Assembly: GCA_007121335.1 (NCBI GenBank)
Contig: SKLY01000002.1
Span: 1-33,677, forward strand
DNA: 33,677 nt
Reading direction: 5' to 3'
From: Saprospiraceae bacterium
GTDB lineage: Bacteria; Bacteroidota; Bacteroidia; Chitinophagales; Saprospiraceae
Shown: positions 1 to 18,307 of the stretch, piece by piece
Numbering within the stretch: the first letter of the stretch is position 1
Layout: each line of letters opens with the position of its first letter
Notes under the pieces: generated by a model
Database searches by the model: none
What the model saw: the letters and a program-made list of their open reading frames with translations, nothing else
What the model was told of the DNA's origin: nothing
Made by a program: the position numbers and the translations under genes

Positions 1-3000
1 CCGGGGCTAATGATGCCAGTGGGACCGACTTTAATATTGGCACCTCTACTGTTACCTATACAATTACTGATTTTGCCGGGAATTCGGATGACTGTGATTT
101 TACCGTTACAGTTAATCAGGTCATTCCTGTAAATGATACCATCAACCTGGTACTTAGCTCAGGAGCTGCTGATTGTGGCAACGAAGTAACACTTGATGTC
201 TCTGTTTACAACTTTAATGATGTGCAAGGTGCACAATTCAGCATTAACTGGGACGAGGACAACTTCTCCTTTGTAAATGGTTCCCTTAACTTCCCTGCTG
301 GTAGTGCTAATTTTAATGATGGAAATGATTTTGTTTCTGTTAGTTGGGTTGGGCAGGATGAAGAAAGCCTCCCCAATGGAACTGTTGTATTCAGTTTAAC
401 TCTTGAAGCATTTGGCGAAGAGGGTAATTCAACTGTTGAATTCAGCGACACACCGCTCGCAATTGAATTCACCAATTTGGACGGTGATATTCCTTTCACC
501 AGCCAGGATGGATCGGTTGAAATTTCTGATACTGAAGATCCCGAAATTACCTGTCCCGATGATGTGGTTGTAAATATCCCTTTTGGGACGTCCCCTGAAG
601 TTGTCAATGATATTGAGCCGGTAGATGTTTCTGATGATTGTGGTGTTGATGCAGTAGATTATGCCCTTAGTGGTGCTACGGATGCAACAGGATCAGATGA
701 TGCAAGTGGAGAAGCCTTTAATGAGGGAGTAACAAACGTTCAGTATACTGTAACTGACGTAAATGGCAACAGCGCTGATTGTTCCTTTTCAGTTACTGTT
801 GAAGAAGATGCCCCAGGCGATGACATATTAATTTTTGTACAAGATTATGTGTTTGATTGCGATGTGGATGAAGTTGTAGTTTCTGTTAGAGCTGCAAATC
901 TTGACGATGTGCTAGGTGTTCAGTATTCGGTTAATTGGGATGAAACCGCCCTGGAATTTGTTTCTGCTGAGGTTACTATTCCCAATGGAACCTCAGCCAT
1001 TAATGATGATTTTGTTAATGATGGCAAACTTGCTACTTCCTGGGCGGATGGCAATGAACCTGATGTAGATAATGGAGATGCCATCCTTGAAATTACTTTC
1101 AATATTTTGTCAGCAAGTGGAGTTAGTTCAGCAGTAGAAATTACTGATGATCCTGTAGCTATTGAATTTTCTGACTTATCAGGCCAGTTACCCTATGATG
1201 TTAATAATGGTTCTGTTCTATTTGAAGATAATGAAGCTCCTACTGTTGTATGCCCTGATGACCTAACCGTCTTTGTCGACGTCTTGGGTGACCCATCAGT
1301 CGCCATCAATGATATTGATGCAGATGCGAATGACAACTGTGAGATCGCTTCTGTTGAATTTGCAATCTCCGGTGATACTGATGTTACCGGATCCGGAGAC
1401 GCCAGTGGTACTGAGTTTAACCTTGGAACCAGCGTAGTCACCTACACGGTGGAAGATGGAGCTGGTAATTCTGCTGAGTGTTCTTTTTCGGCCCTGGTAT
1501 TGCCTCTGTTAACTGAAGAGGTTACAGTAAATGTCGGCTCTGCTACACCGAGTTGTGGCGATGAATTTACTATCGACCTGACTGTAGAAGATTTCATTGG
1601 TCTGGGAGGTGCTCAGTTTACTATTTCCTGGGATTCCGATGTAATCGATTATGTCGATATTGAGGCATTTTTCCCTTCCAATAACGGCTCATTCGAAGTA
1701 AATGATTCACTAACTAATGACGGCTTGTTGCTTGTTTCATGGGTTGGTGATGAAGATGTGACCTTAGACAATGGAGACGTAATTATTACCTTAACATTCC
1801 TTGCTGTCGGAGACCTTGGAGATGAGACGGTTATTGATATAATTGATGATCCTGTGGATATTGAATTCTCTAGTATTGACCCTCTAACCAATCAAATTGA
1901 TTTTGTGATCAATGCCGGAGATGTAGAAATAATCGATGAGGTTGATCCTATAGCTGTTTGTGAAGACATTACTGTTGATTTGGATGCCGATGGTCAGGTT
2001 ACCATTGTCGCTGATGATGTTGACGGTGGTTCTTCTGATAATTGTGGGGTTATCTCTCTTGAAATAGATAACGATTCTTTTGGTTGCGACAATACCGGAC
2101 AAAATACAGTGACTCTTACGGTGTCGGACCCAAGTGGCAATGAAGCTTCTTGCGACGCTATTGTTACTGTCGAGGACAACATCGCTCCATCTCTGGATTG
2201 TGTTGATTCGACTCAGGTATTCCTTGACGTAGATGGATTTGCTTCACTTGACCTGGACGACGTTATTATCCAGGTGTCTGATAACTGTGAGGTGGTTGAT
2301 ACTTTTGCCAATGTGGCTGAGTACGATTGCAGTCTGGTTGGTTCCCACGACCTGTTTATTACTGCAGTCGATCCATCCGGTAATGAAACCACCTGTGATT
2401 TCCACCTGGAGGTCATTGATAATATTCCTCCTGTTCTTGAATGTGTTGATTCTTTAACAATTGCACTTGATGAGAATGGAGAGGCTTCTTTAGATCTTGA
2501 TGATGTGGTTACCGAAGTTTCTGATGCCTGCGGTATCGAACAGTTGTTCGCCAATGTGGATCAATACGATTGCAGCCTTGTAGGTGAACACGATCTTTTC
2601 GTTACCGCTATCGATAGCAATGGAAATGAAAGTACTTGTGACTTCCACCTCACTGTTGTCGATGACATGGCTCCTGAACTTAGCTGTGTTGATTCATTGG
2701 AAATATTCCTGGATGAAAATGGTTTTGCCGCTCTTGATCTGGATGATGTAATTATTAGTGTAACTGACAACTGCGAAGTGGTTGATACTTTCGCCAATGT
2801 CTCTGAATACGATTGCAGCCTTGTAGGCTCTCACGATCTCTTTATCACTGCTGTAGATCCATCTGGAAATGAAACCACTTGTGATTTCCACCTGGAGGTT
2901 ATCGATAACATTCCTCCTGTATTGGAATGTGTAGATTCACTTGAAATCGCTCTGGATGTAACTGGTTTCGCAGCTTTGGATCTTGATGATGTGGTTACTG

Positions 3001-6000
3001 AAGTTTCTGATGCTTGTGGTATTGCTGAATTATTTGCCAATGTCGATCAATATAATTGTGATTTGGTAGGTGAGCACGACTTGTTTGTCACTGCAATAGA
3101 CAGCAATGGCAACGAAAGTACTTGTGATTTTCACCTGACTGTAATTGATGACATCGCCCCCGAATTGACTTGTGTTGATTCTTTAACCATAGCTCTTGAT
3201 TCTACCGGATTTGCCGCTTTGGATCTCGATGATGTGGTGATTGAAGCATCTGATGCTTGTGGTATTGCTGAATTATTTGCCAATGTCGATCAGTACGATT
3301 GTGATTTAGTAGGTGAACACGACTTGTTTGTCACGGCAATAGATAGCAATGGCAATGAGAGTACTTGTGATTTCCACCTGACCGTAATAGATGATATCGC
3401 TCCTGTATTGGAGTGTGTTGCAGAAGTTGATGTCTTCCTCGATGAGAATGGCGAAGCTTCTGTAGATCCTGATGACATCATTCTTTCTGTAGAGGATAAT
3501 TGTGATATTGATGAAGTAACCGCTGAGCCAATCGAATTTGATTGTGGTGATGTGGGAGCTGTTACTATAGAAGTCGAAGCCAGCGATGTAAATGGCAATG
3601 TTTCCACCTGCCAGGTTACTGCAAATGTTCAGGATAATATTCCCCCAACTGTTCTCTGTCAGGATATTGTTGCTGAATTAGACGAGGATGGTGAAGTAGT
3701 TGTAACTGCTGAAGATGTGGATGATGGTTCATTTGACAATTGTGGAATTGCTTCAGTTGAACCCCAATTTGTTGTCCTTACTTGTGATGATATAGGTGAC
3801 AATACTTTCGTGGGTACTGTAACTGATGTGAATGGCAACACTGCCACCTGTGAGGTTACTGTCACAGTGGAGGACAACCTTCCTCCCACAGCACTCTGTG
3901 TGGATGGGTTTGATGTCGAGCTGATGCCTTCTAATAATTTTGAATTCGCCCTTGACGTTGATGATATTGATGATGGTTCTTTCGATAACTGTGGCGATGT
4001 TACACTTGAATTATCTCAAGATCAAATAGGCACAGGTGATGTTGGTGATTTAGATATTGTTTTAACTGTTACTGATGGAAGTGGAAATTCTAGTTCGTGC
4101 GTAACTACGCTTAACGTTCTTGAATTGCCTCCATGTGTACTTATTTGTCCCGACGATGTCGTAATAGATACTGATCCCGGTGTATGCGAAGCTTTTGTGG
4201 GTGGTCTTGAAATTGAAACTACTGGTTTCTGTGATGAATCCGGTGATATTACCAACTCATTTAACGGTGGCGAAGATGCCAGCGGAGTTTATCCACTGGG
4301 TACTACAACCGTTACCTTTAGCATTGACGATCCGGACGTGGCTGATTGTGTGTTTACTGTCGTAGTTGAAGACAATGAGCCTCCGGTATTTAACTGTCCA
4401 AACGAAGTTAGTGTAACTCTGGGTGGTGGTGAATGTGGTGTGAATCTTGACTTTATTCCTGATGTGGATGACAATTGTCTTGAGGTTGCTACTCCTGGTG
4501 CCGGGTTTATGGGTGATATTACAACTACATTTAATGATAATAATGGTTTTGCTGGTAACATGTTTGATATTACCAATGTCTCTGGTGAAACGATAGTTCT
4601 CGATTCGTTTTATGTGCATTTATCTGGAATTGGAAATGCAGATGTTGAATTTTATTCCACTCCTGGTACTTATGTTGGAAATGAGAACAACGGTGCTGTC
4701 TGGGACCTGTTTGTTGCAGAGACGGTTGTGAGTAATGGCATAGGCATCCCAACACCTGTTCCTTTTGGTGGTCTTGTGATTGAACCCGGAGAGAGTTTTG
4801 GAATCTATTTCAACTTAGCTAATTACCTTCCTTTAGGTGTCAGATACACCAATGGCACTACTTTAGTAAATGATGGTAACATTGAAATCGAAACTGGTAT
4901 AGGTAGAGGAAATCCGGCATTCAGTGGGTCGATATTCGCTGATCGTATTTGGAATGGTACTGTTTTCTATTCCGCTGGTGCAGGTGTTTGCGATGAGATT
5001 GATGTCGTTCAAACCGCCGGTCCCGCAAGTGGTACATTTATTGAAATTGGAACCTATTTTGTTGAATTCGAAGCTACGGATTGTGAAGGCAATGTTGCTA
5101 CCTGTGGTTTTGAAGTGGTCGTAAATGAATTTCCCAACCCTGTCACTTCACTCGCTTGTAATGACATGGTTAATGTTTCAGTAGATGAAAACTGTATTGC
5201 AGATATCAATGCCGATATGATCCTGGAAGGTGGACCATATCGCTGTTATGACGATTATGAACTGATTTTTGAAACCAGCGATGGCGATATTGTTGACGCT
5301 CCTTTTGGTGCTGATGTCCTGGATCAGGTATTGACTGTAACAGTGGTTGACCCTGTGACTGGAAATAGCTGCTGGGGCAATGTGCTTATCGAGGACAAAA
5401 TTGATCCCGTAATAGAGTGTCGTGATCTAAACCTCGTTTGTGGTGATATTTTCCCGGAAGCTCCCGCTCCTGCTTTCGTTGGTGAGGAATTCTCAATCGC
5501 CTTGACCGGTTTGAACGACGAGTTTGGTAATGTCGCATCAGGTGCTCCTGCAATTGACCTGGAGTACGAATTTGATTTCTCAGGCCTGGGTGCAGACTTT
5601 ACTGTAAGCAATGTTCGTCTGCGTGTGGATGGAGAGATTTTGCGCCCACATAACAACAGTATCTTCCTGGAAAGTCCTGATGGTACTGAGGAGACCATTT
5701 ACAATGCCACTACATTCAACGCGGGTACTTTCCCCTTAGATATCACTTTTGATGATGAAGGAGATGTTGTAACCGCATATGATCAGTTTAATACGCTTTC
5801 TGATGGTGCGCCTGTGCAACCTATTAACGGTACTATTGCTGCCGGTGCTGGTCCTGTGTTCTTTAACTTCGCGGGTGAGAATGCGCAAGGTGTATGGACT
5901 GTTCGTTTCGAAACCACCTTTATATCGGCATTTACTGCTGCAGGTGGTAATATATCTGAAGTTGAACTAATCCTTAATGTGAATGCACCTGAAATTCTAC

Positions 6001-9000
6001 CATTTGATAACTGTGGTGATATTGATTTGACATTCCTTGATGATCTTGAAATATTTACCGATTGTGATTCCGAATTGGAGAGAATAATCAATAGAACCTG
6101 GACAGTTGAAGACCAAAGTGGCAACACGGCTGCTTGTGAGCAAATCATTAATATTCGCAGAATTACTCTCGACGAACTCGAGGCTCCTGAAAATTACGAT
6201 GGAATTACCAACCCGGGCTTACCCTGTGGTGGAAATTGGCCTACTGATGATAATGGCAACCCACATCCATCTGTAACAGGTGGTTTTGAAAGTGTCTGCG
6301 ATAATATTTACTTCACTTATCAAGATTTGATCTTCGACGTTGGAGATTGTGGATTGGAAAAATTATTGCGTACGTGGTATGTACTGGATGATTGTACCAA
6401 TGAAACAACTCAATTTACTCAGTTGATTCTCATTGACAACAGTGCACCTCCAGTGGTTGAATGCCCTGCTAACGTGCAAGTTAGTACTGCTTTCAATAGC
6501 TGTGAAGGCAGCTGGGATGCTACCCTTGAGACTTTGTTTGCTCAAGGACAAATTGATGAATTGCCTTCAGATATTTGTTCCGATAATGTTACTTATACAG
6601 TAACCGCCAGTGCAGGCAATGTTGAGGAGATCAACGGCAATTGGATTGTTAGCGACCTGCCTTTTGGTGACCACACAGTTACATATGTAGTGGATGATGG
6701 TTGCGGCAATACCGCTGAGTGTGTGACAGGAGTTTCTGTTATTGACGATGTTGCTCCTGTAGCTATCTGTGATCTCGATACCCGAGTGTCGCTTGGTGGT
6801 GGAACTCAAGGTTTCGCACGTGTCTTTGTCGATGCATTCGATGATGGCTCCTGGGATAACTGCGGGGTTGAATCAATATTGGTTAGAAGATCCAGAGACG
6901 ATAATAACTTTGCTAAAAATAGTCAGTGTGACAACAGTCGAACTGAATGGCAGGAATTTATGGATTTCTGTTGTGAGGACATTGAAGCTCGTGACGGTGA
7001 GGTTGATATTTATGTTCAGGTAACTGACCTTAGCGGTAATACCAACATTTGTAGTGTGACGGTTTTTGTTGAAGACAATGTTGCTCCTTCAATTACCTGC
7101 CCATCTGACCTTAATGTGACTGTAAATTGCCTCTTTGATTTTGGTGATTTTGACTTTAATGATCCCAATTCCGATCTTTCTCAAGCCTCGCTTGATGAAT
7201 TGTTTGGTGGAATCGTTGCCATTCAACGCGGTGAAGAGCGTGTTACCAGAGTTGTTGATCCTGCTGCTCTTCCTGCCGATGCACTTCCGGAAGTAACAAT
7301 TATTGATGGTATTGCCATTGATAACTGCCCCAATGGAATGGAAATCGATCAGGAAATCTTTACAGGAGTTATTGAGGAATGCGGTAACCTTGGAAATGGA
7401 GTACAGGTTACGCCTACGCAAGAGAGAATTGTGTTTGGCCAAACTACTCCGCAACAACGTCAGGGTTTTGAAATGGATGGTGATCTTGCGATTGTTAGAG
7501 GTTGGAGAGCAACTGACGCTTTCGGTAACGTAACTCTTGACTGTGTGCAACAAATCAAAGTTGTGAACACCAGCCCATTCTCTGGCATAGATCAGTTTTC
7601 CGGTCTGCCTCCAGGTCAATGGGAAATTGTATGGCCTGATAACGTTACTTTGACAGAATGTTTTGAAGGTAATGGTGTGGATCCTGATCAAGTGGGTGAA
7701 CCTCAAATTCAAGGACCTAATCTTGGATGTGCTGACATTCTTAAGTCATACACTGATCAAATATTTACCGGACCACAAGCTGGTAATGCATGTATGAAGA
7801 TCCTGAGAACCTGGGAGGTGATCGATTGGTGCCAACCGGCTACAATTCAGAGCCCCTGGACGCATGTACAGGAAATTAAGATCATGAATGCTGATGCACC
7901 TATTGTTGTCAATTGTGAAGACCTTGTCTTCGAAGTTACTGACAACACTTGTGAGAAGGATATAGAATTGATTATCGAACTTGACCATGCTTGTATTGAC
8001 GAGGATGTGCTCGAGGATGCGTTGACCATTACCTGGCAAATCGATGCCTTTAATAATGGCACTTTCGACTTTTCTGGTACAGGAGACAATGCATCTAGTG
8101 TTTACCCTGTAGGTGAACACAGAATCGTATGGACAGTCACTGATCCTTGTGGTAACACCACTGTATGTGAGCAAATCTTCGAAATTGTAGATGCTAAACC
8201 GCCTACACCGGTTTGTTTCCACGGAATTGCTACTGTTGTAATGCCAAGTAGTGGTTGTATTACTTTGAGTGCTGAAACCTATGATGCCGGTAGCTTCGAT
8301 AACTGTACAGATTCGACTGATTTGATCTTCTCTTTCAGTGAAGATATCGATAGTACTACTATTACCTTCTGCTGTGATGCTCTCGGTTCAAACAGAATTG
8401 AACTATGGGTTACTGACGAGGCGGGCAATCAGGATTTCTGTGAGACTTTCATATTGATACAGGATCCAAATGAAATTTGTAACGATATCTCTATTGCAGG
8501 TACACTGCAAACTGAAGATATGGAAGCAATTGAAGATGGTACTGTTGAGTTGACACGCAATGACGATCCGTTCAGTTCTATAGTAACCGGTAACGATGGT
8601 GGATTTACCTTCAATGCTGGAATTGCTCTGAACAATGATTATGTATTAACTCCAATAAAGGATATCAATCCATTAAATGGTGTTACTACCTATGACATTG
8701 CCTTGATTCAAAGACACATTCTTGGTATCCAGTATCTCGACAGTCCTTATAAGTTGATTGCTGCAGACGTACGTCCTGATGGTGTAATTAACGTTCTCGA
8801 TATCGCTGACCTCCGATCTTTGATTTTGGGTAGAGTGAACGAGTTCCCAAATAACACCAGCTGGAGGTTTGTTTCCTCTGATCAAACATTCGACCAGGGC
8901 ATGGTTCAACCTCCTAACCCCGCGGATATTGAGACTGTAAGATCATACGAAGATTTGCAAGCTACTGTTAGAAATGCCGACTTCTTCGGTGTGAAAATTG

Positions 9001-9749
9001 GTGATGTGGACAACAGTAATCAGCCTAACTCACTGATTGGTGCTCAAAGCCGTAGCATTGCTAATCCTGTGAATATCATTGTTGACCGTTTCGATTTCGA
9101 AGCTGGTGAGTTTGTAGAAGTTGATTTCAGAGCATCTGAATTTAACCAGGTTCTTGGCTACCAGTTCACACTGAACTTCAACCAGAACATGATTGAATTT
9201 GATGGTTTCAAGGAAGGCACTCTCAACGACTTAAGTGAAGCTAACTTCGGATTCCACTTGTTGGATGATGGAATGATCACTACTTCCTGGAATGCTTCTG
9301 AGCATGTCACCAGGTCGGAGGATGATGTATTGTTTACCCTGCAATTTGTTGCAAAAGCAGATGGTAGTACAGACCAGTTGTTCTCTATTACTTCTGCAGT
9401 TACTGCTTCTGAAGCATACCGCAGTGGTGATGGACCTGTAATTGTTAACCTGCAGGTTGAAGATGTGACTGGAACTGTTGATTCGGATGTATTTGCGCTT
9501 TATCAAAATACTCCGAACCCATTCGGACAATCTACCGTTATTGGCTTCGTACTTCCTGAGGAAGTTTCCGGTAGCATCACCATTTACGATGTAACCGGCA
9601 AGGTTGTGAAAGTCATTCAAGATGAGTTTGTACGCGGTTACAACGAAGTACAAATCGATAGAAATGACCTTCCAGCGAGTGGTGTTTACTACTACCAACT
9701 CGAAGCAGGTAGCAACAATGCAACTAAGAAAATGATGTTGATTGAATAA
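1..9749 (+). CDS. Giant T9SS-secreted HYR/cohesin/dockerin surface protein (5' end outside window)
   Basis: The frame is open from nt 3, so the gene starts upstream; 3248 residues are visible. In order: end of an HYR domain; cohesin-like domains at about nt 145-530, 825-1220 and 1515-1935 alternating with HYR domains; eight HYR-like modules of 80-81 residues (nt 1941-4130), five of them near-identical; an HYR domain split by a beta-module (about 4500-4990); an HYR-like module split by a proprotein-convertase P-domain-like stretch (about 5466-5990); more degenerate Cys-containing HYR-like modules to about 8470; a dockerin-like pair of calcium loops (DINPLNGVTTYD and DVRPDGVINVLD, nt 8660-8860); a fourth cohesin-like domain (9069-9475); and a type A T9SS sorting domain (TPNPFGQST onward, about 9490-9746). 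The chain is very rich in Asp and Glu. It is probably exported through the outer membrane and anchored as an adhesin or matrix protein; the ligand is unknown. Cohesin and P-domain calls rest on pattern recognition only. Confidence 0.9.
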   Translation, partial: GANDASGTDFNIGTSTVTYTITDFAGNSDDCDFTVTVNQVIPVNDTINLVLSSGAADCGNEVTLDVSVYNFNDVQGAQFSINWDEDNFSFVNGSLNFPAGSANFNDGNDFVSVSWVGQDEESLPNGTVVFSLTLEAFGEEGNSTVEFSDTPLAIEFTNLDGDIPFTSQDGSVEISDTEDPEITCPDDVVVNIPFGTSPEVVNDIEPVDVSDDCGVDAVDYALSGATDATGSDDASGEAFNEGVTNVQYTVTDVNGNSADCSFSVTVEEDAPGDDILIFVQDYVFDCDVDEVVVSVRAANLDDVLGVQYSVNWDETALEFVSAEVTIPNGTSAINDDFVNDGKLATSWADGNEPDVDNGDAILEITFNILSASGVSSAVEITDDPVAIEFSDLSGQLPYDVNNGSVLFEDNEAPTVVCPDDLTVFVDVLGDPSVAINDIDADANDNCEIASVEFAISGDTDVTGSGDASGTEFNLGTSVVTYTVEDGAGNSAECSFSALVLPLLTEEVTVNVGSATPSCGDEFTIDLTVEDFIGLGGAQFTISWDSDVIDYVDIEAFFPSNNGSFEVNDSLTNDGLLLVSWVGDEDVTLDNGDVIITLTFLAVGDLGDETVIDIIDDPVDIEFSSIDPLTNQIDFVINAGDVEIIDEVDPIAVCEDITVDLDADGQVTIVADDVDGGSSDNCGVISLEIDNDSFGCDNTGQNTVTLTVSDPSGNEASCDAIVTVEDNIAPSLDCVDSTQVFLDVDGFASLDLDDVIIQVSDNCEVVDTFANVAEYDCSLVGSHDLFITAVDPSGNETTCDFHLEVIDNIPPVLECVDSLTIALDENGEASLDLDDVVTEVSDACGIEQLFANVDQYDCSLVGEHDLFVTAIDSNGNESTCDFHLTVVDDMAPELSCVDSLEIFLDENGFAALDLDDVIISVTDNCEVVDTFANVSEYDCSLVGSHDLFITAVDPSGNETTCDFHLEVIDNIPPVLECVDSLEIALDVTGFAALDLDDVVTEVSDACGIAELFANVDQYNCDLVGEHDLFVTAIDSNGNESTCDFHLTVIDDIAPELTCVDSLTIALDSTGFAALDLDDVVIEASDACGIAELFANVDQYDCDLVGEHDLFVTAIDSNGNESTCDFHLTVIDDIAPVLECVAEVDVFLDENGEASVDPDDIILSVEDNCDIDEVTAEPIEFDCGDVGAVTIEVEASDVNGNVSTCQVTANVQDNIPPTVLCQDIVAELDEDGEVVVTAEDVDDGSFDNCGIASVEPQFVVLTCDDIGDNTFVGTVTDVNGNTATCEVTVTVEDNLPPTALCVDGFDVELMPSNNFEFALDVDDIDDGSFDNCGDVTLELSQDQIGTGDVGDLDIVLTVTDGSGNSSSCVTTLNVLELPPCVLICPDDVVIDTDPGVCEAFVGGLEIETTGFCDESGDITNSFNGGEDASGVYPLGTTTVTFSIDDPDVADCVFTVVVEDNEPPVFNCPNEVSVTLGGGECGVNLDFIPDVDDNCLEVATPGAGFMGDITTTFNDNNGFAGNMFDITNVSGETIVLDSFYVHLSGIGNADVEFYSTPGTYVGNENNGAVWDLFVAETVVSNGIGIPTPVPFGGLVIEPGESFGIYFNLANYLPLGVRYTNGTTLVNDGNIEIETGIGRGNPAFSGSIFADRIWNGTVFYSAGAGVCDEIDVVQTAGPASGTFIEIGTYFVEFEATDCEGNVATCGFEVVVNEFPNPVTSLACNDMVNVSVDENCIADINADMILEGGPYRCYDDYELIFETSDGDIVDAPFGADVLDQVLTVTVVDPVTGNSCWGNVLIEDKIDPVIECRDLNLVCGDIFPEAPAPAFVGEEFSIALTGLNDEFGNVASGAPAIDLEYEFDFSGLGADFTVSNVRLRVDGEILRPHNNSIFLESPDGTEETIYNATTFNAGTFPLDITFDDEGDVVTAYDQFNTLSDGAPVQPINGTIAAGAGPVFFNFAGENAQGVWTVRFETTFISAFTAAGGNISEVELILNVNAPEILPFDNCGDIDLTFLDDLEIFTDCDSELERIINRTWTVEDQSGNTAACEQIINIRRITLDELEAPENYDGITNPGLPCGGNWPTDDNGNPHPSVTGGFESVCDNIYFTYQDLIFDVGDCGLEKLLRTWYVLDDCTNETTQFTQLILIDNSAPPVVECPANVQVSTAFNSCEGSWDATLETLFAQGQIDELPSDICSDNVTYTVTASAGNVEEINGNWIVSDLPFGDHTVTYVVDDGCGNTAECVTGVSVIDDVAPVAICDLDTRVSLGGGTQGFARVFVDAFDDGSWDNCGVESILVRRSRDDNNFAKNSQCDNSRTEWQEFMDFCCEDIEARDGEVDIYVQVTDLSGNTNICSVTVFVEDNVAPSITCPSDLNVTVNCLFDFGDFDFNDPNSDLSQASLDELFGGIVAIQRGEERVTRVVDPAALPADALPEVTIIDGIAIDNCPNGMEIDQEIFTGVIEECGNLGNGVQVTPTQERIVFGQTTPQQRQGFEMDGDLAIVRGWRATDAFGNVTLDCVQQIKVVNTSPFSGIDQFSGLPPGQWEIVWPDNVTLTECFEGNGVDPDQVGEPQIQGPNLGCADILKSYTDQIFTGPQAGNACMKILRTWEVIDWCQPATIQSPWTHVQEIKIMNADAPIVVNCEDLVFEVTDNTCEKDIELIIELDHACIDEDVLEDALTITWQIDAFNNGTFDFSGTGDNASSVYPVGEHRIVWTVTDPCGNTTVCEQIFEIVDAKPPTPVCFHGIATVVMPSSGCITLSAETYDAGSFDNCTDSTDLIFSFSEDIDSTTITFCCDALGSNRIELWVTDEAGNQDFCETFILIQDPNEICNDISIAGTLQTEDMEAIEDGTVELTRNDDPFSSIVTGNDGGFTFNAGIALNNDYVLTPIKDINPLNGVTTYDIALIQRHILGIQYLDSPYKLIAADVRPDGVINVLDIADLRSLILGRVNEFPNNTSWRFVSSDQTFDQGMVQPPNPADIETVRSYEDLQATVRNADFFGVKIGDVDNSNQPNSLIGAQSRSIANPVNIIVDRFDFEAGEFVEVDFRASEFNQVLGYQFTLNFNQNMIEFDGFKEGTLNDLSEANFGFHLLDDGMITTSWNASEHVTRSEDDVLFTLQFVAKADGSTDQLFSITSAVTASEAYRSGDGPVIVNLQVEDVTGTVDSDVFALYQNTPNPFGQSTVIGFVLPEEVSGSITIYDVTGKVVKVIQDEFVRGYNEVQIDRNDLPASGVYYYQLEAGSNNATKKMMLIE
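2181..3395 (+). repeat. Five in-frame 243-bp tandem repeats (81-residue HYR-like units)
   Basis: Units start at 2181, 2424, 2667, 2910 and 3153, exactly 243 bp apart. Each has the pattern PPxLxCVDS, an Asp-rich LDLDDV strand, a D-N/A-C motif, FANV, YxCxLVGxHDLF and GNExTCDFHL. Units 1 and 3 share the DNCEVVDTFANV version and units 2, 4 and 5 the DACGI version, giving an A-B-A-B-B order. A sixth, diverged unit of the same length follows (3396-3638), and 80-residue cousins flank both sides (1941-2180, 3639-3878). Four Cys per unit are conserved. Confidence 0.95.
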
Positions 9750-16654: not shown

Positions 16655-18307
16655 TCAGTGCTTTATAAAAGTATGCGTCTCCTTTTTTCGGGCACCGACT
16701 ATGTGAATGAGATATGCCCCGGATTGAAGCTGCTCGACATTGATCTGCTTCAGATTGGGTGAAAAGGCTTCGTAATCCACCGGAAATCGCAATATTTCAC
16801 GCCCGAGCATATCGGTAATCTGAATTTCATAGGGTTCAAAATCGGGGGCGAGGATGTCGATGTTCAGCTCTCCGGTTGTGGGATTGGGGTATAGATTTGA
16901 AATGGAAAGTGGTCCCAATTCAAACTGACAATCACTCAACTCAAAAAGACTGTTGTACACATTTAATCTACCCCCTGAAATGGTGTATTGTTCGAGATTG
17001 GGATTTCGATCTACTCCGTCCAGTATAGCACGTCTGGCTACAAGTGCCGCCTCACTGGGATTGTCGCGTGCGAGTTGGGCAAAAGCTATGCAATCTGCAG
17101 AGTAGAGTAGTGCAATGGCTGCCGTCACTTGCGGTGCTGCCAAAGAAGTGCCGCTTAGGTTCCCCCGGTATTCGCTATCGATGGTCGTGGTTAGAATACT
17201 GCGTCCGGGCGCTGCCAGTTCAATGTTTTTCAATCCGTAACCCGCACTCAGTATTTTTTCGTCATCCATGTTTGAGTTGGTCACTGAGATCAGAAAAGGG
17301 CTGGGACAGGTCGTGGGTATATCTCCAAAAACATCCACATCGGTATTGGAATTTACTGTGGCCGCAGTAGAAAGGATTCCCACCTCACCCATCAAATCGT
17401 ACATCTCACACCACATGGGGAAATTCTCCGGGTCCTCATTGGCGATTCCGCCGGAAAAATTGGTCGCGACCACAAAAGCACCCTCTTGACCTCCACTCTC
17501 ATTGTACCTCCTGCGCTGATCTATTGCATAGTGGTAGGCCTCTACCATGTCTGCCTCCGTGGGTCCGCCATTGCTCTTCGACAATACCATGACCTGTACA
17601 TTCCAGTTTATACTGCTGAGCCCCTCGGAGTTGTTTGTAACTGCAGCTGCAACTCCAATGACTTGCGTTCCGTGGGGATTAACGCTGTGTTGGTCGTCTC
17701 CGGTGGTGACATTCAGACCGTAATAGTCATCCACGTAGCCATTCCCATCGTCATCCATACCACTGCCGGGTATTTCGCCGCGGTTTACCCATATGTTGTC
17801 GTAAAGGTCGGGATGATCGATCTGACATCCGCCGTCCATAATAGCAATTATAATAGTGTCACCGAGTGCCGTGGTTCCTCCGCGCGCTATTTCCCAGGCT
17901 TCAGGTGCTTGTATTTGGAAAAGGTTCCACTGGTCGGGGAAAAGGGGGTCGTCGGGTTCACCGGTTCGCCATTCTCCTATTCTGTTGGGAAAAATGTCGC
18001 GAACAGAAGGTTGACCCAGCATAAACTCCCGCATTTGGGCTGGTGTGCGATCGACAGTCTCCATTCTAAAAAGGTGGGTGTTTAATGTTCTCGCCAGAGG
18101 CCGAATGTGTTCAACCTGCACTTCCGGGGCAAAATCAGTCAGTTGATCAATCCAATCGGAAGGCGCTGTTCCCTCTTTAAGCTGGACAATATACTCATCG
18201 GGGACAACCGGCGTATTTTGGAAAAGATGCTTTCCCTGACCTGTCATGTTAAAGGCGGAGACTAGAAAAATGATGACAAAAAACAGGGGTATGCGGTTGA
18301 TTTTCAT
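16655..18307 (-). CDS. Secreted subtilisin-like (S8) serine protease with T9SS sorting domain
   Basis: The 550-residue protein has a signal peptide (residues 1 to about 24), an inhibitor-like propeptide with an Asp-Glu-Tyr-Ile-Val-Gln-Leu start (about 37-110), and an S8 catalytic domain (about 125-455) with Asp158 in IMDGGCQIDHPDL, His212 in NPHGTQVIG and Ser388 in SGTSLAAPQV. A type A T9SS C-terminal domain follows (NLYPNPTTGELNIDI onward, about 470-550). The catalytic Asp is followed by GG instead of S/T-G, HGTQ replaces HGTH, and the canonical AAGN oxyanion motif is replaced by AATVN at about 315-319, so activity is likely but not certain. The protein should be exported by Sec, then by T9SS to the surface or medium. 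It lies last in a four-gene row, 19 nt after the metal-receptor gene. Confidence 0.93.
   Translation of the reverse strand: MKINRIPLFFVIIFLVSAFNMTGQGKHLFQNTPVVPDEYIVQLKEGTAPSDWIDQLTDFAPEVQVEHIRPLARTLNTHLFRMETVDRTPAQMREFMLGQPSVRDIFPNRIGEWRTGEPDDPLFPDQWNLFQIQAPEAWEIARGGTTALGDTIIIAIMDGGCQIDHPDLYDNIWVNRGEIPGSGMDDDGNGYVDDYYGLNVTTGDDQHSVNPHGTQVIGVAAAVTNNSEGLSSINWNVQVMVLSKSNGGPTEADMVEAYHYAIDQRRRYNESGGQEGAFVVATNFSGGIANEDPENFPMWCEMYDLMGEVGILSTAATVNSNTDVDVFGDIPTTCPSPFLISVTNSNMDDEKILSAGYGLKNIELAAPGRSILTTTIDSEYRGNLSGTSLAAPQVTAAIALLYSADCIAFAQLARDNPSEAALVARRAILDGVDRNPNLEQYTISGGRLNVYNSLFELSDCQFELGPLSISNLYPNPTTGELNIDILAPDFEPYEIQITDMLGREILRFPVDYEAFSPNLKQINVEQLQSGAYLIHIVGARKKETHTFIKH

Follow-up and report, generated by a model that had tools for sequence, protein, structure and literature searches.

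In the textbook view, cellulosomes are built by cohesin-dockerin assembly. The use of such pairs elsewhere is, to our knowledge, mostly unexplained. What, then, is the role of a giant predicted secreted protein from a soda-lake bacterium that carries cohesins and a dockerin on one chain? The protein is encoded in the stretch of DNA analysed here ("the window"), which is the entire contig C62 (33,677 nt) of the 3.14 Mb draft genome of a Saprospiraceae bacterium. We consider it to be probably (at a rough probability of 0.55) a hub on the cell surface that resembles an adaptor scaffoldin and that serves, in trans, a non-cellulosomal network of cohesins and dockerins delivered by the type IX secretion system (T9SS).

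Domain organization of the window protein

The open reading frame (ORF; 3..9749, + strand, as are all features of the protein given below) is read from base 3 to a stop at 9749 and encodes 3,248 amino acids (aa). Because the ORF runs off the contig edge at its open 5′ end, the N-terminus of the protein is truncated. With the 3,713 aa (stop to stop) of an ortholog called L051 as the yardstick, the ORF represents approximately the C-terminal 87% of the frame. Three cohesins (Coh1-3), interleaved with HYR domains, are followed by an HYR array, a dockerin-like pair of loops, a fourth cohesin (Coh4) and a type A C-terminal sorting domain (CTD) of the T9SS. On the whole ORF, a Pfam scan reports Cohesin (1.7e-21, 4 stretches), HYR (1.9e-52, 8 stretches) and Por_Secre_tail (5.5e-8), and no catalytic family. 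The domain calls in a preliminary description of this DNA had been made by eye, and were borne out by searches with Pfam, TIGR04183 and a family hidden Markov model (HMM).

When scored as segments against Pfam Cohesin (PF00963, cut-off 24.1 bits), the scaffold-type cohesins Coh2 (828..1217, aa 276-405, 27.5 bits) and Coh3 (1518..1925, aa 506-641, 34.1 bits) and the cassette-type cohesin Coh4 (9075..9452, aa 3025-3150, 40.8 bits) are above the cut-off, and the scaffold-type Coh1 (138..530, aa 46-176, 22.5 bits) is just below it. With a cohesin HMM made from 42 domains, all of them from other genomes and none from the window, the leave-out scores of Coh1 to Coh4 were 73, 67, 73 and 62 bits, respectively.

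The preliminary description had named a cohesin fold in predicted structures as one test of its proposal, and the fold is present for Coh1, Coh3 and Coh4. In a model of aa 36-697 (4-sequence alignment, mean pLDDT 75), the Coh1 region matches the solved cohesin 6kge_A (Z 17.8, root-mean-square deviation (rmsd) 1.9 Å over 127 residues) and the Coh3 region matches the type II cohesin 2b59_A (Z 13.1, rmsd 2.6 Å). Coh2 has no separate match, and the one match that covers Coh2-Coh3, the cohesin dyad 3l8q_A, has a poor overall rmsd. In a model of aa 2841-3248 (20-sequence alignment, mean pLDDT 67, pTM 0.42), Coh4 has a pLDDT of mostly 77-92 and matches 4dh2_C, a cohesin from a cohesin-dockerin complex (Z 12.2, rmsd 2.8 Å, 129 residues). 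Solved cohesins are the top rows in these structural comparisons. The cohesin identity of the window domains, both the three N-terminal segments alternating with HYR domains and the fourth behind the dockerin-like pair, is confirmed at the level of profiles and predicted folds.

The chain ends in the expected T9SS type A sorting domain (9510..9737), with a TIGR04183 score of 41.1 bits against a cut-off of 23. The SprA model, representing the only gene of the T9SS machinery that was searched, is above its cut-off on two contigs of the genome. By its CTD and the SprA in the genome, the window protein is a predicted T9SS type A cargo.

The dockerin and the C-terminal cassette

The last 400 residues form a unit, here called the cassette, that consists of Reg, dockerin, link, cohesin and CTD. 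Reg (8484..8648) is a CarboxypepD_reg-like beta-domain with which the cassette-profile match starts; on paralogs, CarboxypepD_reg reaches 16-19 bits, which is under its cut-off. The Dockerin_1 module (8661..8819) contains two 12-residue loops. Loop 1 (8661..8696) is non-canonical and has no ligand residue at position 5; loop 2 (8766..8801) follows the canonical pattern in the family, with R at position 3 in the window copy. A conserved link (8820..9062, NTSWRF ... GVKIGDV) connects the dockerin to Coh4.

Against Dockerin_1 (PF00404, cut-off 22.9 bits), the window module scores 25.3 bits in the genome scan, 22.7 bits as a segment and 17.1 bits in the whole ORF. Because this part of the structural model is of low confidence, the dockerin call rests on sequence profiles, by which the proposed pair of 12-residue loops is a dockerin. 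When a profile of ten family dockerins was compared with the PDB, 22 distinct sequences matched at E<=0.01; most of these bear the names of dockerins or of enzymes from cellulosome-type bacteria. The best match, AaBgIC, and two "serine protease" chains are not dockerins by name; the AaBgIC alignment shows two dockerin-like repeats.

The calcium ligands of F-hand repeats are at loop positions 1, 3, 5 and 12. Among 104 distinct family dockerins, repeat 2 is canonical at these positions (D1 98%, N/D3 85%, D/S/N5 95%, D12 99%). Repeat 1 conserves D/N1 (76%), D/N3 (70%), G7 (98%) and D12 (99%), and its helix conserves Q17 (71%), R/K18 (87%) and H19 (87%). Positions 10, 11, 18 and 19 are the cohesin contacts in clostridial dockerins. 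The conservation pattern of repeat 1 fits a one-sided, conserved binding face, and is not proof of binding. Dockerins also occur outside cassettes: a protein with Big_9/cadherin-like repeats (L028:2133-4697) has a Dockerin_1 match (35.3 bits) and a T9SS CTD, and no cassette.

The cassette is a family-wide unit

In the window's genome, the cassette occurs in eleven other complete proteins, in one protein cut by a contig end and in one degenerate protein. The proteins that carry it have varied cargo, and on them it is placed immediately ahead of the CTD. With a CTD-containing profile, the genomes of all 40 relatives match at E<=0.001, and 24 of them match at E<1e-60, namely 23 of the 25 in the family plus G036. 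The matches of the remaining genomes look like CTD-only matches; among them are the in-family genomes G012 and G013, whose E-values are only of that order. A CTD-less cassette profile matches 24 of 149 genomes of the order at E<=1e-10, comprising 18 of 19 same-family genomes (a family total that is inferred from table ordering) and 6 of 130 others. At E<=1e-20, these 18 family genomes have 3-27 matches each, a few of them limited to the dockerin part.

Because of the cassette matches in 18 of 19 family genomes, pairing of a dockerin and a cohesin in cis must be regarded as common in the family. The preliminary description was correct in placing both partners on one chain. The pairing is no peculiarity of the giant, because the pair belongs to a stock C-terminal cassette. 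Uniqueness is ruled out by both samples of genomes.

All 21 genomes with at least three cohesin matches also carry the cassette (among the 149 genomes, both searches being taken as the same sample), although, with a cohesin in every cassette, this co-occurrence is to some extent circular. The cassette genomes with two or fewer cohesin matches are G084, G086 and G094. G013, which is in the family and has no cassette match, has one cohesin match (E 4.2e-4). A cassette match near position 2,118,000 of contig C14 in G170 lies inside a 16,143-aa open frame.

Judged by its named relatives, the family of the network is Saprospiraceae. A search of named genomes yielded 16 loci, assigned to Saprospirales (14), Saprospiraceae (1) and Trueperaceae (1). 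The last of these, L057, is in a metagenome-assembled genome (MAG) and has a Saprospirales-type cassette; the contig is probably mis-binned.

Tandem-cohesin scaffolds mostly adjoin cassette genes

We surveyed 18 loci with tandem-cohesin scaffolds. Seventeen contain a complete scaffold, with 3-10 cohesins; in L135 the contig ends within the scaffold. All six scaffolds tested with Pfam (five from relatives and the window genome's own) have SprB repeats and a CHU_C type B CTD. In each of the 17 complete loci, the next ORF after the scaffold is PorP/SprF-like; we take the ORF in the window's genome to be PorP/SprF, and those of the other loci were assigned by their likeness to it.

A cassette ORF is a same-strand neighbour of the scaffold in 13 of the 17 loci, separated from it at most by a one-cohesin ORF or PorP. 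In the window's own genome, a cassette gene is directly upstream of the scaffold gene. The scaffold gene there, at L032:7449-10724 on the minus strand, encodes three cohesins. Chance adjacency was rejected as an explanation: its rough expectation is 0.13 of 17 loci, assuming one gene per 1.1 kb, and the genomes are related, the count by genus being 8 of 11. As a control, we inspected the 25 CHU_C ORFs above the cut-off in the window's genome. The cohesin scaffold adjoins a cassette. Among the other 24, that of C278 is on a cassette contig on the opposite strand, that of C183 is ~16 kb from a cassette, that of C270 is taken up below, and the rest are on contigs with no dockerin match.

Small one-cohesin proteins are encoded upstream of the scaffold in 8 of 18 loci; a type A CTD match, under the cut-off, was obtained for two of the three that were tested, and none for the third. 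In L124 (8936-10752), two consecutive one-cohesin proteins precede a six-cohesin scaffold, with no cassette adjacent. In 9 of 18 loci, we found a response regulator related to that which lies upstream of the cassette gene in the window's genome. These regulators (L032:14200-14895 and eight other scaffold loci) are NarL/LuxR-like, as named by eye, and may regulate the scaffold and cassette genes. In two genomes (L040:62-5194 and L066:1199-6311), the gene of a degenerate dockerin-cassette protein stands directly before an ORF whose C-terminus is type B-like; the ORF in L040 is a CHU_C match with no detectable cohesins.

Two kinds of cohesin

The window's own domains fall into two groups in a tree of 115 cohesins. 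Coh1-3 are on one side of a branch (100/98) along with all scaffold and one-cohesin domains, and Coh4 is among the cassette cohesins on the other side (98/87). The tree is based on few columns, its bootstrap was still unsettled, and many of the inner forks are open. Given that Coh1-3 and Coh4 are on opposite sides of the branch, the window protein is a hybrid, in which a receptor-type array is fused to a cassette. With several cohesins and a dockerin on a non-catalytic chain, it belongs, by its sequence, to the functional class of scaffoldins.

A protease that ends in a dockerin

In the window's genome, a trypsin-like protein (contig C131) ends immediately after the dockerin-link motif. Matches spanning protease and dockerin (E<1e-80) were found in 33 of 61 family genomes. 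Of the 20 protease loci that we read, including the genome's own, one is cut off by the end of its contig and the other 19 have a complete 3′ end. All 19 complete loci stop within some ten residues of the link motif, although in one of them (L149) an in-frame stop interrupts the protease upstream. The early chain end leaves no room for a CTD, so the protease has none. The cohesin HMM has no match in these proteins. Because the protease chains end after the link motif, the dockerin unit is evidently kept without a neighbouring cohesin. By contrast, a subtilase encoded in the window itself (16658-18307, - strand) bears a T9SS type A signal of its own, with no dockerin match.

A probable surface hub in a trans network

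The analysis shows the protein domains, the family-wide cassette, the scaffold-PorP pair, the cassette linkage, the two cohesin groups and the stand-alone dockerin protease, which are probably all parts of one system. The scaffold-type N-terminal cohesins (three in the window, and five ahead of the HYR array in L051) would be sockets for the dockerins of other proteins. The window protein's dockerin, in turn, would plug into a cohesin of a type B scaffold or of another cassette protein. The type A CTD would carry the protein through the T9SS to the surface, and the HYR arrays would presumably be spacers. Binding between dockerins and cohesins, in trans and with calcium, is a prediction from these sequences.

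Several observations weigh against the hub. The dockerin part of the AF2 model has two helices near the expected places and a pLDDT of only about 38-52. In repeat 1 of the family dockerins, the usual ligand at loop position 5 is mostly lost, and the residue there is most often L (43%). Pfam Cohesin finds no match in four of the five full-cassette ORFs scanned, nor in the degenerate sixth. The scaffold survey covered one locus per genome, chosen by tandem cohesin matches, with other tandem-cohesin ORFs lying outside the survey of neighbours. A cassette is not adjacent in 4 of 17 loci (L119, L124, L132 and L133), although a contig end limits one side in L119 and L132. In the control, the CHU_C ORF of C270, which has no detectable cohesins, is the immediate same-strand neighbour of a degenerate dockerin gene. 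Cassette genes also form clusters of their own (L029 and L136). Two genomes from outside the family, G084 and G086, carry cassettes and are absent from the set with a cohesin match, and one or two cohesin matches occur in 24 genomes that have no cassette. The protease does not follow the scaffold strictly, occurring in two of the six scaffold-locus genomes searched (present in G000 and G134; absent from G041, G116, G122 and G140). Finally, the hub does not account for how the CTD-less protease is exported from the periplasm.

Some of these observations would be expected if the cassette were a generic membrane-proximal stalk and sorting unit, which is a possible explanation, though a clearly less probable one than the hub. 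The dockerin pair would then be a calcium-stiffened joint and the cohesin-like domain an immunoglobulin (Ig)-like sandwich, and neither would bind a partner. Such a role is consistent with the position of the cassette directly before the CTD on varied cargo, with the many cassette cohesins that are beyond detection by Pfam, with the ligand position that repeat 1 mostly lacks, and with the absence of a reliable dockerin-cohesin contact from the low-confidence model. However, the dockerin unit also ends a protease that has no CTD, and thus no CTD stalk. Moreover, scaffold genes with tandem cohesins are linked to cassette genes, positions 17-19 of the repeat 1 helix are strongly conserved, and the likeness of the folds to cohesins extends to detail, solved cohesins occupying the top rows.

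The preliminary description raised the possibility of head-to-tail self-assembly or a calcium-triggered fibre, in which the dockerin of one cassette protein binds the cohesin of the next. We now regard this as unlikely, and no longer as the leading reading. It accords with chains that each have one dockerin and one or more cohesins, both in the window and in the cassettes of 18 of 19 family genomes, and Coh4 has the best Pfam score among the window's four cohesins. On the other hand, separate scaffolds and a dockerin-only protease exist, and the tree splits Coh1-3 from Coh4. In addition, anchoring near the C-terminus is expected of a mature T9SS type A chain, which favors a lateral network over a free fibre. 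Least probable of all is a closed cassette, in which the dockerin docks on its own neighbour, Coh4, as one compact unit: the two modules are adjacent and co-inherited in most cassette-profile matches, but they are separable, as dockerins without a cohesin and cohesins without a dockerin are both found, and the model has no reliable contact between them, although its dockerin is too poor to exclude one.

The surface hub can be extended to a more ambitious proposal, which we offer as speculation. Tandem-cohesin type B scaffolds with SprB repeats and giant HYR adaptors might together gather dockerin proteins into a non-cellulolytic, cellulosome-like surface machine, and the protease, which has no T9SS signal, might be exported piggyback on a cohesin of a CTD-bearing partner. 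If it is true that docking carries out the CTD-less protease, this would be a new route through the T9SS.

The family provides a family-wide cohesin-dockerin case in Gram-negative T9SS bacteria, in which genes for plug, socket, scaffold and anchor are visible and linked. The proposed network could explain the abundance of giant HYR surface proteins in these bacteria. Concrete cohesin-dockerin pairs are now available for testing, and protein assembly may gain new docking pairs that come from alkaline, saline habitats.

Relation to known systems

Adaptor scaffoldins have several cohesins and a dockerin on one non-catalytic chain, and the window protein resembles the clostridial (ScaB-type) ones in this respect. 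Its cohesin models match type I and type II cohesins, and one of the PDB sequences matched by the family dockerin profile, 4uyp chain B (4uyp_B), is named "Cellulosomal scaffoldin adaptor protein B". Unlike the clostridial proteins, the window protein has a C-terminal T9SS signal, HYR arrays and an extra cohesin behind its dockerin.

A cellulosome proper was rejected as an explanation. Neither glycoside hydrolases (GHs) nor carbohydrate-binding modules (CBMs) were found on the window protein, on the six scaffolds tested or on eight other Pfam-scanned ORFs. Unlike in clostridial cellulosomes, there is no GH among the dockerin ORFs scanned in the window's genome, a check that left out seven dockerin ORFs, on C278, C183, C155, C215, C227, C230 and C235.

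SprB-type adhesins are T9SS type B proteins with PorP/SprF partners. The family scaffolds are like them in their SprB repeats, their CHU_C CTD and the PorP/SprF-like gene downstream, and differ from them in having N-terminal cohesin arrays. We know of no described SprB with such arrays. Aureispira GhpA, which appeared in the Foldseek list, was set aside: Ig-like stacks match many things, and the cassette profile matches no GhpA chain at E<=0.1.

The nearest published parallel that we found appears to be the cellulosome-like complex of Ca. Stygibacter (Cloacimonadota), which was itself predicted from MAGs (PMC8542988). According to the available text of that paper, shared elements are a tandem-cohesin scaffoldin-like protein, a C-terminal surface-attachment domain and dockerin-bearing peptidases. 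The Ca. Stygibacter complex differs in the CBM domains on its scaffoldin and in its GH18/GH57 enzymes, and the same text describes no dockerin-cohesin cassette before a CTD, no SprB repeats and no PorP partner. Another apparent parallel is found in proteins of ANME archaea (PMC9012536), which combine one dockerin with up to five cohesins and are not believed to act in cellulose degradation. They differ in being archaeal, and the portion of the paper available to us describes no T9SS signal or HYR array. As judged by titles and abstracts in the open-licence literature, we found no description of a Saprospiraceae cohesin-dockerin system of this kind. Term searches of the accessible text found none of Bacteroidota, Bacteroidetes and Saprospir in PMC11557425, and neither dockerin nor cohesin in PMC11205867; the subject of PMC3796261, as far as its accessible text goes, is classical cellulosomes.

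The ortholog L051 and other features of the window protein

L051 (Saprospirales) has a signal-like N-terminus, as judged by eye, and relative to it the window protein lacks approximately the first 460 residues. The cohesin HMM (run with --nobias) finds six cohesins in L051, of which five are before the HYR array and one is in the cassette. Pfam reports no Cohesin on the full L051 protein, which we attribute to a filter effect on a long protein. Among the 16 named relatives, several of which are cut by contig ends, the combination of a receptor array and a cassette occurs in L051 and L053. The remainder, for example the 3,552-aa L056, have at most the cassette cohesin by the cohesin HMM.

The window and L051 proteins are 97-100% identical over aa 2200-3248, compared to 63-72% over Coh1-HYR1-Coh2. 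At the nucleotide level, the corresponding identities are 94-97% at the C-terminal part and 65-69% over Coh1-HYR1-Coh2. The receptor end as a whole (window 3-1217, HYR0-Coh1-HYR1-Coh2) is 63-75% identical to L051, and identity is low at synonymous sites too. The drop in identity there, next to an almost unchanged C-terminus, suggests that the receptor end has been exchanged or has diverged fast; it may be a mosaic or fast-exchanged segment. A second dip in identity is located near aa 1500-1680.

The best Pfam HYR stretch of the window protein is at 528..800 (aa 176-266). The array of HYR and HYR-like beta-domains (1926..4400) scores 80.2 bits with Pfam HYR, in 8 stretches within the segment, and several of its copies are near-identical by eye. 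Further along, there is a weak proprotein-convertase P-domain-like segment (5607..5909), for which P_proprotein scores 16.3 bits, under its cut-off of 21.

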